Assembly (NCBI GenBank): GCA_002215675.1
Contig: NGFH01000002.1
Coordinates: 533,887-597,886 of the forward strand
Origin: Bacteroidetes bacterium 2013_40CM_41_45
GTDB taxonomy: Bacteria > Bacteroidota > Bacteroidia > AKYH767-A > 2013-40CM-41-45
Direction: 5' to 3'
Length of the DNA: 64,000 nucleotides
Shown here: positions 10,162 through 60,184 of the stretch, piece after piece
How positions within the stretch are numbered: the stretch's first letter is position 1
How the letters are laid out: the number at the start of each line of letters is the position of its first letter
Program-made: the position numbers and the translations under genes
Notes under the pieces: generated by a model
The model's database searches: none
What the model was told of the DNA's origin: nothing
Seen by the model: the letters and a program-made list of their open reading frames with translations, nothing else

Positions 10162-11251
10162 AGTCATCATCAGCGGTGGCGGCACGGGCGGTCATATTTT
10201 TCCAGCTCTTGCCATCGCCAACGCATTAAAAGAAATGAATACAGACAACCAAATACTTTTTGTGGGAGCGCTCGGAAGAATGGAGATGGAAAAAATTCCG
10301 GCAGCGGGATATAAAATCATCGGGCTTGATATACGTGGGCTGCAGCGAAAAATATCTGTGTCCAACTTTTCATTTCCGTTCAAAGTGATTTCAAGTGTGG
10401 CGAAGTCAAAAAGAATTATCAAAGAATTTAAACCCGATGCAGCAGTGGGTGTGGGCGGCTATGCCAGCGGTCCATTACTGTGGGCTGCGACATCATACAA
10501 AATTCCGAGTGTTATACAGGAGCAGAATTCATTTCCGGGAATAACTAACCGCCTGTTGGCAAAACGTGTGCAGAAAATCTGTGTGGCATACGATGGGATG
10601 GAGAAATTCTTCCCTGCCAAAAATATTATCATGACGGGAAACCCTGTAAGGCAGGATATTGTAAAGACAGCGGGAAAAGAAACCGAGGCGGTGGAATTTT
10701 TTGGTTTGACAAGAAGTAAAAAAACATTGCTGGTAATTGGCGGAAGCCTGGGTGCAAGAACAATTAATGAAAGTATTACAGCAGGGATTGAAAAAATAAA
10801 TGCGTCCGGTATTCAATTGATATGGCAAACAGGCAAAAATTATTTTGAGAAAACGAAATCATTTACATCGGAAAATGTCAAGATTTATGATTTCATCAGC
10901 CGTATGGATTTGGCTTATGCTGCGGCAGATGTGGTGATATCAAGGGCAGGAGCGTTGTCAGTTTCAGAATTATGCCTGGTGGGGAAGCCGGTGATTTTTG
11001 TTCCATCGCCCAATGTAACGGCAGACCATCAAACCAAAAACGCAACAACGCTGACAGAAAAAAATGCCGCTATTCTTGTTCGTGATGTTGAAGCTCAGGA
11101 AAAGCTGATAAATGAAGCGTTGTTATTGATGCAAGATGAAGTGAAATGTAAAACGCTTAGTCAGAATATTTCTGCATTGGCAAAAAGAGAATCGGCACAA
11201 AGAATCGCTCAGATTATTTACGACCTCGTTGAAAAAAATAGTTATAAGTAA
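10145..11251 (+). CDS. murG: UDP-GlcNAc:lipid I GlcNAc transferase MurG
   Basis: A 368-aa GT28 glycosyltransferase that converts lipid I to lipid II on the cytoplasmic membrane face. The N-terminal glycine loop SGGGTGGHIFPA (10-21) and the second GG motif VIGGSLGAR mark the two Rossmann domains. SRAGALSVSEL and the later PVIFVP segment form the UDP-GlcNAc site. The only start that retains the glycine loop is a TTG lying 17 nt inside ftsW, since the next ATG would remove the loop. Its last codons and stop are embedded in a heptad repeat element, so the C-terminal residues may be repeat-derived. Confidence 0.93.
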   Translation: MQRKIKVIISGGGTGGHIFPALAIANALKEMNTDNQILFVGALGRMEMEKIPAAGYKIIGLDIRGLQRKISVSNFSFPFKVISSVAKSKRIIKEFKPDAAVGVGGYASGPLLWAATSYKIPSVIQEQNSFPGITNRLLAKRVQKICVAYDGMEKFFPAKNIIMTGNPVRQDIVKTAGKETEAVEFFGLTRSKKTLLVIGGSLGARTINESITAGIEKINASGIQLIWQTGKNYFEKTKSFTSENVKIYDFISRMDLAYAAADVVISRAGALSVSELCLVGKPVIFVPSPNVTADHQTKNATTLTEKNAAILVRDVEAQEKLINEALLLMQDEVKCKTLSQNISALAKRESAQRIAQIIYDLVEKNSYK

Positions 11252-11334
11252 TAAGTTATATGTTATACGGATTAGCGATAAACAATTTCTGCACAACAAG
11301 CCTGTCGTATAACTAATAACATATAACGTATAAC
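11241..11334. repeat. Inverted heptad element A (29-nt arms) at murG-murC junction
   Basis: The left arm (11241-11269) is four units of the GTTATNN type plus G. The right arm (11306-11334) is C plus four units ending TAAC. The two arms are reverse complements at about 24 of 29 positions and enclose a 36-nt core. The element overlaps the murG stop codon and ends 11 nt before murC. The architecture is the same as in the elements at 38958 and 59133. It could fold as a long hairpin in the transcript. Confidence 0.8.
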
Positions 11335-38952: not shown

Positions 38953-38957
38953 TAGAA

Positions 38958-39034
38958 GTTATACGTTATTAGTTATTTGTTATACGGGTTGTGCAATTAA
39001 TTTTGCGTGTAACTTTTAACGTATAACATATAAC
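38958..39034. repeat. Inverted heptad element B (29-nt arms)
   Basis: The left arm (38958-38986) is four GTTATNN units plus G. The right arm (39006-39034) is C plus four NNNTAAC units. The arms pair well across a 19-nt core. The element fills the gap from 5 nt after the DUF62 stop to 5 nt before the DinB start. Unit family and arm length are the same as element A at 11241-11334. Confidence 0.8.
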
Positions 39035-39039
39035 ACGAA

Positions 39040-53198: not shown

Positions 53199-53210
53199 AG
53201 GGCGAATAAA

Positions 53211-53231
53211 TGACTAATGACCAATGCCCAA
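53211..53231. repeat. Tandem heptad array (TGACYAA) that provides a start codon
   Basis: Three units (TGACTAA, TGACCAA, TGCCCAA) lie 12 nt after the dapD stop. The ATG used for the following glycosyltransferase begins at 53224, within the array. It is the same heptamer family as the arrays at 8.9 and 14.9 kb. Confidence 0.7.
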
Positions 53232-54249
53232 TGACTTTTCCGGCTTGAAATTTCTCGTCATACAAACTGCTTTTATAGGTGATGTCATACTGGCGACAGC
53301 GCTGGTTGAAAAACTTCATTCCACTTTTCCCGGTTCACAAATTGATATGTTGGTGCGGAGCGGTAATGAATCATTGCTTCAAAATAATCCTCATATAAGG
53401 CAAATCATTACCTGGAATAAAAAACAAAATAAAGTCAGTAATCTTTTCAAGATCATAGTATCTGTAAAGAGAGAAAAATACGATGCAGTAATTAATACTC
53501 ATCGGTTCTTTTCCAGCGGGTTGATAACTACGTTTTCAAGCGCTAAAGAAAAAATCGGTTTCAAAAAAAATCCATTATCAATTTTTTTTTCCAAGAGGAC
53601 AGAGCATTCTTTAAAGGGCATACATGAAATTGAACGCAATCAAAAACTCATCGCACACCTGACGGATGAAAAGCCCTCTATGCCGCGAATGTATCCTTCT
53701 GCCGCGGATGATGAGGCCACACTAAAATTCAAAACCGATGCACAGGGAAACAGAATCAAATATATCTGCATGGCTCCCGCATCCGTTTGGTTTACCAAAC
53801 AGTTTCCAAAAGAAAAATGGATTGAGTTTATTAAATTAATTCCGGAAGACATTACCGTTTACCTGCTTGGCGCTGCATCCGATTTTGATTTATGTGAGCG
53901 CGTCAAACAACAAACGATACACAACAAGAGGCAAACAACAAATCTTGCCGGAAAATTATCCCTCCTTCAAACCGCTTCTCTTATGCGCGATGCACAGATG
54001 AATTACAGCAACGATTCAGCGCCATTGCACATAGCATCTGCCATGAATGCACCTGTGACAGCAATTTTTTGTTCAACAGTTCCGCAATTTGGCTTCGGGC
54101 CTTTGTCAGAAAAATCTTTTGTGACGGAAATAAAATATAAACTCTACTGCCGCCCCTGCGGGCTGCATGGATATCGTGAATGCCCCGAAGGTCATTTCAA
54201 ATGCGCATTGGAAATTGATGTAAATGATTTACCGAGAACGCTTGCTTGA
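53224..54249 (+). CDS. Glycosyltransferase family 9 (heptosyltransferase-like)
   Basis: A 341-aa GT9 enzyme, likely transferring heptose or a related sugar to LPS or lipooligosaccharide core on the cytoplasmic face. Marks are LVIQTAFIGDVILATALVEKLHSTFP at the start, CMAPASVWFTKQFPKEKW in the middle, and NYSNDSAPLHIASAMNAPVTAIF near the C-terminus. The ATG lies in a heptad array. A TTG at 53245 (giving LKFLVIQT) would match the usual family start better. A second heptad array lies inside the gene, coding an Asn/Gln/Thr/Lys-rich loop near residues 227-240. Confidence 0.88.
   Translation: MPNDFSGLKFLVIQTAFIGDVILATALVEKLHSTFPGSQIDMLVRSGNESLLQNNPHIRQIITWNKKQNKVSNLFKIIVSVKREKYDAVINTHRFFSSGLITTFSSAKEKIGFKKNPLSIFFSKRTEHSLKGIHEIERNQKLIAHLTDEKPSMPRMYPSAADDEATLKFKTDAQGNRIKYICMAPASVWFTKQFPKEKWIEFIKLIPEDITVYLLGAASDFDLCERVKQQTIHNKRQTTNLAGKLSLLQTASLMRDAQMNYSNDSAPLHIASAMNAPVTAIFCSTVPQFGFGPLSEKSFVTEIKYKLYCRPCGLHGYRECPEGHFKCALEIDVNDLPRTLA
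53904..53945. repeat. Heptad array inside the GT9 coding sequence
   Basis: Six units of the CAAACAA type (CAAACAA, CAAACGA, TACACAA, CAAGAGG, CAAACAA, CAAATCT) run with an exact 7-nt period. Six heptads equal 42 nt, so the frame is kept. They code a polar loop (QQTIHNKRQTT) just before LAGKLSLL, a place where GT9 proteins vary. Confidence 0.65.
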
Positions 54250-58116: not shown

Positions 58117-59148
58117 ATGTATAAGCTGCTTTTCAGACCGCTTCTTTTTCTTCTTCCGGCTGAGGCCGCCCATGCTGTTACCATGGGAATTTTTAATGTA
58201 ATTACACGGATTCCCTTCCTGAAATTGCTCATTAAAAATTCTTATTCCGGGGAAGACAAAAATCAAAGCGTAAATATCGCAGGTTTGAATTTTAAAAACA
58301 GGGTAGGGCTTGCAGCGGGCTTTGATAAGAACGGAAAGTATATTAATGCACTTGCCTGTCTCGGGTTCGGGCATATTGAAGTGGGAACTGTGACACCTCT
58401 TTCGCAACCGGGAAATCCAAAGCCAAGATTATTCCGCCTCAAAAAAGATGAAGCCCTCATTAACCGGATGGGATTTAACAATGACGGAGCAAAGGCAGTT
58501 GCCGGAAGATTAAAGAAGAAAAAGCAGAATATTATTGTAGGAGTGAACATTGGTAAGAACAAAGACACCCCGAACGAACAAGCCGTTGATGACTATGAAA
58601 AATGTTTCAGGGAACTATACGATGTGGCAGATTATTTTGTTGTGAACGTCAGCTCACCAAATACACCCGGGCTCAGAGAACTGCAGGAGAAAGAGGCATT
58701 GAGAAAAATATTATTTCGCTTGCAGGAAATTAATTCAGAGGAGAGACGCAAACCGATTTTCCTGAAAATCTCACCTGACCTCACCCTTTCCCAACTGGAC
58801 GACATTGTTGAAGTAGTTCTTGAGACAAAAATTGCAGGGGTTATCGGATCTAATACAACCATTGCACGTGAGCACCTCCGAACTCCAAAGCCCCAACTCC
58901 TCACTATAGGCAACGGAGGATTGAGTGGACGACCTCTGGCTAAGTCCAGCACAGAAATGATACGGTATTTATCGCTTAAAGCGCAGGGAAAATTTTCAAT
59001 CATCGGCTGCGGAGGAATTTTTTCAGGAAACGATGCACTAGAAAAAATTAATGCCGGCGCAGATTTGGTACAACTATATACCGGATTTATTTACGAGGGG
59101 CCATCGCTGGTAAAAAAAATATGTAAAAAATTGTCAGACGTCAGATGA
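58117..59148 (+). CDS. pyrD: Dihydroorotate dehydrogenase (quinone), class 2
   Basis: A 343-aa membrane-associated flavoenzyme oxidising dihydroorotate to orotate with quinone in pyrimidine synthesis. The N-terminal hydrophobic helices (MYKLLFRPLLFLLPAEAAHA) are the class 2 mark. FMN and substrate motifs include GLAAGFDKNGKYINAL, EVGTVTPLSQPGNPKPRLFRL, NVSSPNTPGLRELQ (catalytic Ser) and GCGGIFSGNDALEKI. The last residues (SDVR) and the stop lie in the left arm of inverted heptad element C. Confidence 0.95.
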   Translation: MYKLLFRPLLFLLPAEAAHAVTMGIFNVITRIPFLKLLIKNSYSGEDKNQSVNIAGLNFKNRVGLAAGFDKNGKYINALACLGFGHIEVGTVTPLSQPGNPKPRLFRLKKDEALINRMGFNNDGAKAVAGRLKKKKQNIIVGVNIGKNKDTPNEQAVDDYEKCFRELYDVADYFVVNVSSPNTPGLRELQEKEALRKILFRLQEINSEERRKPIFLKISPDLTLSQLDDIVEVVLETKIAGVIGSNTTIAREHLRTPKPQLLTIGNGGLSGRPLAKSSTEMIRYLSLKAQGKFSIIGCGGIFSGNDALEKINAGADLVQLYTGFIYEGPSLVKKICKKLSDVR

Positions 59149-59299
59149 CGGATGTCCGGTGTAAAAAATGGGACAACAATATAAATTTGAAAAGCTTGAA
59201 GTGTGGCAATTAGCTGTTGAACTTTTCGCTAAAATTACAAGCACTCATTAATTCGCTTAACAAATGAAAACATCCGACATCAGTCATCCGTCATCGGAC
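59133..59299. mobile_element. Inverted heptad element C enclosing a four-helix-bundle remnant
   Basis: The left arm (59133-59161) is four units of the GTCAGAY/GACGGAT type plus G. The right arm (59271-59299) is C plus four units of the ATCCGAC type. The arms are reverse complements at about 22 of 29 positions. The core between them (109 nt) holds a short frame resembling S23 / 23S rRNA intervening-sequence proteins. The left arm overlaps the pyrD stop. The right arm codes the N-terminus of the HMG-CoA lyase. Arm design is identical to elements A and B. Called mobile by inference only. Confidence 0.6.
59168..59251 (+). pseudogene. Remnant of an S23-like four-helix-bundle protein gene
   Basis: A 27-codon frame begins MGQQYKFEKLEVWQLAVEL and stops after KITSTH. 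The pattern FEKLEVWQLAVEL matches the N-terminus of the four-helix-bundle family (S23 ribosomal / 23S rRNA intervening-sequence proteins, about 115-130 aa), in which FxxLEVWQKAxEL is typical. The rest of the gene is missing. A second frame just after (SLIRLTN) could be the family C-terminus after an internal deletion with frameshift, which is tentative. The assignment rests on my memory of the family pattern, since a short match cannot be proven without a search. Confidence 0.6.
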
Positions 59300-60184
59300 A
59301 TTATCATTACCGAGTGTCCCAGAGACGCTATGCAGGGTATTCACGATTATATTCCCGCAAATATTAAAGCAGCGTACATCAATAAACTTCTGCGTGTTGG
59401 ATTTGATGTGATTGATTTCGGAAGCTTTGTCTCTCCAAAAGCAATTCCCCAAATGAAAGATACAGCCGAAGTATTAAGTAAATTGGATAGAGAATATATT
59501 TCAATACCTGGTCAATCATCAATGACCAATAACCAATCACCAACCAAGCTGCTCGCTATCATAGCCAATGAGAGGGGCGCAAAGGATGCCGCTGCATTCG
59601 ATGAAATAACTTTTCTCGGTTACCCTTTTTCTGTTTCAGAAGAATTTCAGAAAAGAAATACCAACCATACTATTGCAGAATCGCTGCCTGTTGTGGAGGC
59701 GATTCAGGGTCTCTGCCTTAAAAAAAATAAGCAGCTTGTTATTTATATCTCCATGGGTTTCGGAAACCCCTATGGCGAAGAATGGAATGCCGATATCGTT
59801 ATTAAATGGGTAACACATCTTGCAGGCATGGGCATAAAAATTATCCCGCTTGCCGATACCGTTGGTGTTTCCAATCCTGAAAACATCACCCGCCTCTTTT
59901 CAAACCTTATTCCCGAATTTCCCGGTGTGGAATTCGGGGCGCATCTTCATACCCGTCCCGACCAATGGAAAGAAAAGATTGAAGCGGCTTATGGCAGCGG
60001 GTGCCGCAGGTTCGATTCAACCATAAAAGGCATAGGCGGCTGCCCTATGGCAAAAGATGAATTGGTGGGAAATCTGGCAACAGAAAACATGGTTGGTTTT
60101 TGCAGGGAAAAAAATATCCCCATATCGCTAAACGAACAGGCGTTACGGGAAGCCATTTTTTCCTCTTCAAAAGTTTTTTTCTGA
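59264..60184 (+). CDS. Hydroxymethylglutaryl-CoA lyase
   Basis: A 306-aa TIM-barrel lyase splitting HMG-CoA to acetoacetate and acetyl-CoA (leucine and ketone-body metabolism). It has ECPRDAMQG (Arg-Asp pair), DFGSFVSPKAIPQM, SMGFGNPYG, ADTVGVSNPE, GAHLHTRPD and the Cys loop GIGGCPMAKDELVGNLATE. Two stretches look foreign. The first about ten residues (KTSDISHPSSD) come from the right arm of element C. A polar stretch near residues 84-94 (GQSSMTNNQSP) comes from an internal heptad array where relatives, as I recall them, have a much shorter loop. The core is intact. Confidence 0.9.
   Translation: MKTSDISHPSSDIIITECPRDAMQGIHDYIPANIKAAYINKLLRVGFDVIDFGSFVSPKAIPQMKDTAEVLSKLDREYISIPGQSSMTNNQSPTKLLAIIANERGAKDAAAFDEITFLGYPFSVSEEFQKRNTNHTIAESLPVVEAIQGLCLKKNKQLVIYISMGFGNPYGEEWNADIVIKWVTHLAGMGIKIIPLADTVGVSNPENITRLFSNLIPEFPGVEFGAHLHTRPDQWKEKIEAAYGSGCRRFDSTIKGIGGCPMAKDELVGNLATENMVGFCREKNIPISLNEQALREAIFSSSKVFF
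59512..59546. repeat. Heptad array inside HMG-CoA lyase gene
   Basis: Five units (TCAATCA, TCAATGA, CCAATAA, CCAATCA, CCAACCA) run with an exact 7-nt period and are translated without a stop as QSSMTNNQSPT. They fall in a loop after a helix (VLSKLD) and before the strand TKLLAIIAN. The units are close to the TGACYAA and TCAATAA arrays elsewhere. Confidence 0.72.

Follow-up and report, generated by a model that had tools for sequence, protein, structure and literature searches.

Two in-frame heptad arrays in enzyme genes about 5.6 kb apart

The window, by which we mean the whole 64,000-nt stretch of DNA analysed, comes from an uncultured bacterium and carries on its forward strand a 341-aa ORF (53224..54249) for a GT9 glycosyltransferase of the heptosyltransferase family. 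Its membership was supported by the profile match to Pfam PF01075 (E = 1.5e-34) and by a heptosyltransferase fold: the best solved relative by sequence was 1psw, E. coli heptosyltransferase II, and Foldseek on the predicted model returned 1psw and 3tov as top matches. Residues 227-241 of this protein are coded by a degenerate, in-frame CAAACAA (AAACAAC) heptad array (53901..53945, + strand). Positions 53904-53945 read CAAACAA CAAACGA TACACAA CAAGAGG CAAACAA CAAATCT and code for V227-N240 (VKQQTIHNKRQTTN), directly ahead of the sequence LAGKLSLL, as the original prediction had placed them. The six heptads matched CAAACAA at 7, 6, 5, 3, 7 and 4 of 7 bases, respectively (total 32/42), so that the array is well preserved at its ends and worn between them. 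The predicted array is real, whereas its count of six units was generous, with four of the six recognisable by eye. In the AlphaFold2 model (mean pLDDT 91.2; 41 sequences), the array region spans the end of helix 218-229 (residues 227-229), a loop (230-237) and a strand (238-240). The array would thus sit at a helix-loop-strand corner of a confident predicted structure, which supports the loop position suggested for it.

The second array lies in an ORF of 306 aa for an HMG-CoA-lyase-like protein (59264..60184, + strand; Pfam PF00682 HMGL-like, E = 7e-17), so that the proposed pair of intragenic arrays about 5.6 kb apart was borne out. This AATGACC/AATAACC-type array (59505..59546, + strand; lag-7 match 25/35) is in frame and forms part of a 13-residue insertion present in 1/30 homologues. 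The repeat lengthens its host protein here, and on the alignment it is the clear case of insertion. Two arrays whose units are mutual reverse complements lie nearby: one of TGTCGGA type (window 59132-59173) where a dihydroorotate dehydrogenase ORF ends, and one of ACATCCG type (59260-59311) where the HMG-CoA-lyase-like ORF begins.

A further array, of AATGACC type, contains the listed ATG of the GT9 gene (53224) and extends over 53209..53235 on the + strand (TRF, 3.9 copies, score 40; match to the heptad vocabulary described below, 29/42). Residue 8 of the GT9 protein, coded by TTG in this genome, was reached by 36/110 aligned homologues, 25 of which had TTG, GTG or ATG at that place. This pattern suggests that GT9 translation may start past the AATGACC array, just 3' of it.

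Period-7 arrays across the genome sample

Heptad arrays were counted in a genome sample of 864 kb, consisting of the window and 40 stretches of 20 kb. ORFs were mechanical calls of at least 100 aa and made up 90% of the sample; a strong cluster was defined by a lag match of at least 22/35. Lag 7 yielded 96 clusters (30 in ORFs and 66 elsewhere), compared with 2-14 for the control lags 5, 8, 10, 11 and 13 (1-6 in ORFs and 0-8 elsewhere). The tandem 7-nt period therefore stood well above the control periods and was mainly intergenic, although the GT9 array itself was weak (19/35). The absence of other coding arrays, which would have counted against the original prediction, was not what this sample showed. 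The same units recurred at many places: AATGACC pairs were found 53 times versus once for the reversed control, and the coding units AAACCTC and AAGAATT occurred in four clusters each. One pair of TCAGTTA, the reverse complement of TAACTGA, lay at window 31570. Outside ORFs, the commonest unit was AACGTAT, a rotation of CGTATAA; close pairs of intergenic-looking arrays were seen at window 11240-11334 (AGTTATA/TATAACA) and 38957-39035 (AGTTATT/CGTATAA).

The 30 ORF clusters fell in 22 ORFs, all of which were scanned against Pfam; 21 had a match, and it is these matches that show the ORFs to be genes. Two of the 30 clusters, L073:6927 (L073 being without a Pfam match) and L079:10040, are probably due to chance or a false ORF. 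Fourteen clusters lay within T9SS sorting domain (PF18962) matches of 10 proteins. At signal peptides or N-termini, clusters were found in a SurA-like chaperone, LptE, a GWxTD lipoprotein, methylmalonyl-CoA mutase and a glyoxalase-like protein; internal clusters occurred in valyl-tRNA synthetase (ValRS; 2), IspG/GcpE (3), MnmE, the HMG-CoA-lyase-like protein and a carboxyltransferase that we take to be propionyl-CoA carboxylase beta. The PF18962 clusters (L063, L071, L074, L077, L079, L080, L085 and L092) code for stretches such as NLKPQTSNLKPQT and ELRIQNAELRI. Signal-peptide-like N-termini written in heptads, of which LVIGHWSLVIGCWL is an example, were seen in LptE (L097 4828-5376, - strand), the SurA-like protein (L088 10571-11956, + strand) and the GWxTD lipoprotein (L074 3630-4895, + strand). 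Nine of 10 SurA-like orthologues had no lag-7 peak of at least 20 at that place, and the other, L295, had a peak of 23 that starts upstream.

The reading strand of the coding arrays was biased. Of 30 consensus units, 17 contained a stop on one strand only, 8 contained none and 5 contained stops on both strands. All but one of the 17 one-strand-stop units (16/17) were read on the stop-free strand, a bias that is partly built in because ORF calling itself favours stop-free reading. Real copies of the units with stops on both strands escape through mixed units.

The GT9 array resembles the genome's heptad vocabulary

By period-7 scoring alone, the GT9 array was weak. TRF at a minimum score of 30 did not report it, and its best 42-nt frame (53901-53942) scored a lag-7 match of 19/35, which was equalled by 49/5000 codon shuffles and 44/5000 dinucleotide shuffles of the loop (about 1%). 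The number of coding lag-7 peaks in the 18-21 band was within the range of the control lags, without excess. These results agree with an explanation by chance, in which a Lys/Gln/Asn-rich loop in A/C-rich codons merely looks periodic.

We compared the array with periodic versions of the genome's heptad vocabulary, a set of 48 consensus units from arrays scoring at least 23 in the 864-kb sample, from which the GT9 array was left out as too weak. The GT9 array matched this vocabulary at 33/42, a score reached by 0/5000 codon shuffles and 0/5000 dinucleotide shuffles. Among 752,466 coding (ORF) 42-mers, matches of at least 30/42 formed 33 clusters, 5 of which had a lag-7 match below 22; the GT9 array was the best of those 5. 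In three heptad-poor relatives (G007, G009 and G016), 7 of 598,770 42-mers reached 30/42 and none reached 31. Libraries of shuffled units still gave the GT9 array 30/42 in 3/3 trials, so composition accounts for part of the vocabulary score. When CAAACAA was searched for as a pair pattern, 15 matches were obtained against 18 for the reversed control; because reversing this repeat only rotates it, the control was uninformative and the comparison was set aside. The unit AAACAAC was also present in L077. Since the full score of 33/42 was absent from all shuffles and all heptad-poor windows, and three further species have strong arrays in this GT9 loop (below), we consider chance unlikely. The GT9 array is real but worn.

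The same protein loops carry different heptads in different species

The comparison of the GT9 loop covered 110 sequences, of which 30 were loci from 41 whole genomes and 80 came from named contigs. The identical sequences L003 and L228 were both counted, L007 and L008 are 98% identical, and the set of relatives included no same-genus genome. The segment before LAGK was 27 residues long in 91/110 homologues, with other sequences, and 29 residues here. Judged by this alignment, the array is not a 14-residue insertion, its segment being only 2 residues longer than in most homologues, and it does not lengthen its host in the manner of a Rickettsia palindromic element. The original prediction had named as evidence against it a loop of equal length but unrelated sequence in GT9 homologues, and the lengths came close to that; near-equal length is nevertheless no refutation, because comparable arrays elsewhere also barely change loop length.

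Strong arrays were found in the same GT9 loop of three other Bacteroidota metagenome-assembled genomes: an ATCCYAA-like array in L158 (CANIQT010000006.1; 27/35), a CCCGCGT-like array in L190 (JAHEYK010000064.1; 24/35) and an AAGTTCA-like array in L156 (CAIRRW010000550.1; 22/35). The four array-bearing proteins were 56-72% identical. Whatever the rotation, their units differed from one another by 3-4 bases and were no more alike than shuffled units. Arrays also occupied a second GT9 loop, around residue 169, in L157, L159 and L190. The L157 and L159 proteins are 74% identical and their units there differ by 2 bases, so these two may have inherited one array. Further GT9 clusters near residues 131 (L153, L156) and 71 (L155) were counted, although they may represent conserved coding sequence or runs of A.

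Similar coincidences were observed in other enzymes, where one ValRS site and two IspG sites were occupied in more than one species. Near ValRS residue 455, the unit was TCAAACC here and AAATTCG in L119 (G005) and L122 (G006; 34/35). The L119 and L122 units had 0 mismatches after rotation in proteins 67% identical, and an earlier count of three different units at this site was rejected: the three species share two vocabularies. In IspG, the units were GTACAAA here and TCTTCAA in L102 near residue 457, and AACRTCC here and GAGGGAC in L109 near residue 320. Control lags 5, 8, 10 and 11 gave 0-1 clusters per family. Uniform random placement equalled the coincidence of sites in 14 (GT9), 8 (ValRS) and 180 (IspG) of 20,000 trials, and in 64/20,000 for GT9 when the clusters near residues 131 and 71 were included; loops violate the uniform placement that these tests assume. 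What the coincidence demonstrates is that species share tolerant sites, not that arrays are actively targeted to them. In our view, the GT9 loop is tolerated and has no function of its own. Beside the heptad arrays of G008, in L109 (IspG) and at L237 1589-2017, an AFAEASAD / AFAKASAG-type peptide was seen, which is possibly another dispersed coding repeat.

These sites also bear on whether the arrays are old, with ancestral heptads at the loops, units turned over in each lineage and the trace lost in heptad-poor species. The unit shared by G005 and G006 at the ValRS site and the similar L157 and L159 units in GT9 make inheritance of an old array possible there, and nearly constant loop lengths would fit it more generally. 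The carboxyltransferase argues the other way: about 4.7 copies of CAAACCT stand here in place of the orthologues' loop pattern, whereas none of the other 13 orthologues has an array of at least 22 and most share the loop pattern that is missing only here. ValRS L118, which is 78% identical to L119, likewise has no array of at least 22. Old inheritance as a general explanation is quite improbable.

Selection on the protein for a useful heptapeptide or amphipathic strand might also create a period in the DNA. The array-coded residues of ValRS and MnmE do keep part of the orthologues' pattern. The DNA period, however, is 7 nt and not 21, different peptides are found at the same site (LKLQTSN versus KFEIRNS), and 66/96 clusters lie where no ORF was called. 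We disfavour this explanation and regard it as very improbable.

Arrays mostly leave segment length unchanged

Segment length was compared for 20 arrays of at least 22 in five families, which span 26-44 nt. Fourteen of them changed the segment by at most 3 residues, and the remaining six by -9, +6, +6, +6, +8 and +13 residues; without the GT9 clusters near residues 131 and 71, the count was 11/17. MnmE also has arrays (24/35 and 22/35), with length equal in 13/13 orthologues, but they carry little weight because some of their residues recur in relatives lacking an array at 22. The carboxyltransferase segment was 47 residues long in 11/13 other orthologues and 48 here, and the cleanest arrays (34/35, 30/35, 29/35 and 29/35) lay in segments whose length differed from the median by no more than 1.5 residues. 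From these comparisons, the commoner outcome of the arrival of an array looks like replacement, not insertion. Selection on length acting on insertions could also yield constant lengths; the near-median segments of the cleanest arrays favour replacement in one or few steps.

The heptad trait varies within one family

In samples of 200 kb, two genomes of the same family (G007 and G009) and one of the same order (G016) had 0-1 clusters in ORFs and 0-1 elsewhere, and G008, also of the same family, had 10 in ORFs and 22 elsewhere. The ORF clusters of G008 were dropped as evidence of coding arrays, because 9/10 lay in short ORFs (103-192 aa) that probably do not represent genes. The trait thus varies within a single family.

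Discussion

The existence of the arrays was established directly, as were their period, vocabulary, frame and strand bias, the sites they share and their uneven occurrence among lineages. On this basis, we consider it probable that the GT9 loop is the decayed copy of a dispersed, lineage-specific heptad repeat that was written into or over tolerant loops and survived in frame and free of stops. Heptanucleotide repeats, with a vocabulary differing by lineage, would enter short stretches of DNA or overwrite them, and arrays would spread by copying from other arrays, perhaps through template switching seeded by short matches; ValRS and MnmE orthologues that are array-free or have weaker arrays do contain partial matches. 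Copies in surface loops, signal peptides or T9SS sorting tails would survive if they were in frame and stop-free; purifying selection would keep them in tolerant places, and selection would presumably fix loop length. Point mutations would then wear the arrays down, as in GT9. With a few loops being tolerant in many species, orthologous loops could come to be coded by unrelated heptads.

A broader reading, which we put forward tentatively as a possibility, is that a largely sequence-independent process in some Bacteroidota overwrites DNA with a 7-nt period, little change in length and a lineage-specific vocabulary. Repeat 'dialects' would in this way replace the loops, signal peptides and sorting tails of ordinary proteins again and again, at the same tolerant sites. 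Taken together, the results suggest that protein loops in this bacterial group are repeatedly rewritten by scattered repeat DNA. If heptads recurrently rewrite loops, they would supply new protein sequence, including signal peptides and secretion tails, and would reveal, as a natural experiment, which core-enzyme loops tolerate arbitrary sequence. Because one family includes both heptad-rich and heptad-poor genomes, comparative genomics can test how the 7-nt period arose.

Heptamer repeats between genes are already known, and it is mostly there that they have been described so far. Recurrent, mostly length-conserving heptad arrays in orthologous loops were not found in the literature searched, which comprised titles and abstract openings with few subscription journals covered. 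Rickettsia palindromic elements are dispersed repeat DNA that lies in frame inside unrelated proteins. The arrays described here share with them the in-frame reading of a dispersed repeat inside unrelated proteins, and differ in being short 7-nt arrays that are mostly length-neutral, whereas the Rickettsia elements are longer and palindromic. The G-rich heptameric repeats of Xanthomonas and Nostoc are also dispersed heptanucleotide arrays; in the passages available from their description they are of GGGNATC type and under-represented in coding regions (PMC4692102), whereas the units here are mostly A/T/C-rich.

Closest in kind are the TAACTGA heptamer direct repeats which, in the available parts of the source, are described from Beggiatoaceae, Cyanobacteria and five Bacteroidetes, mostly just upstream of start codons, with some sets within ORFs, where they lie chiefly at the ends of proteins or in hypothetical ones (MacGregor 2015, PMC4679880). 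The GT9 unit, CAAACAA, is not TAACTGA, and the GT9 array is not a TAACTGA repeat proper. As far as those parts describe them, the TAACTGA repeats resemble the present arrays in their 7-nt tandem units, their dispersal, their patchy occurrence among related lineages and the avoidance of the stop-rich orientation in ORFs (PMC4679880). In that account (PMC4679880) they consist mostly of one unit, whereas here many units occur, inside core enzymes, in loops that hold arrays in other species too and that are mostly not lengthened by them.
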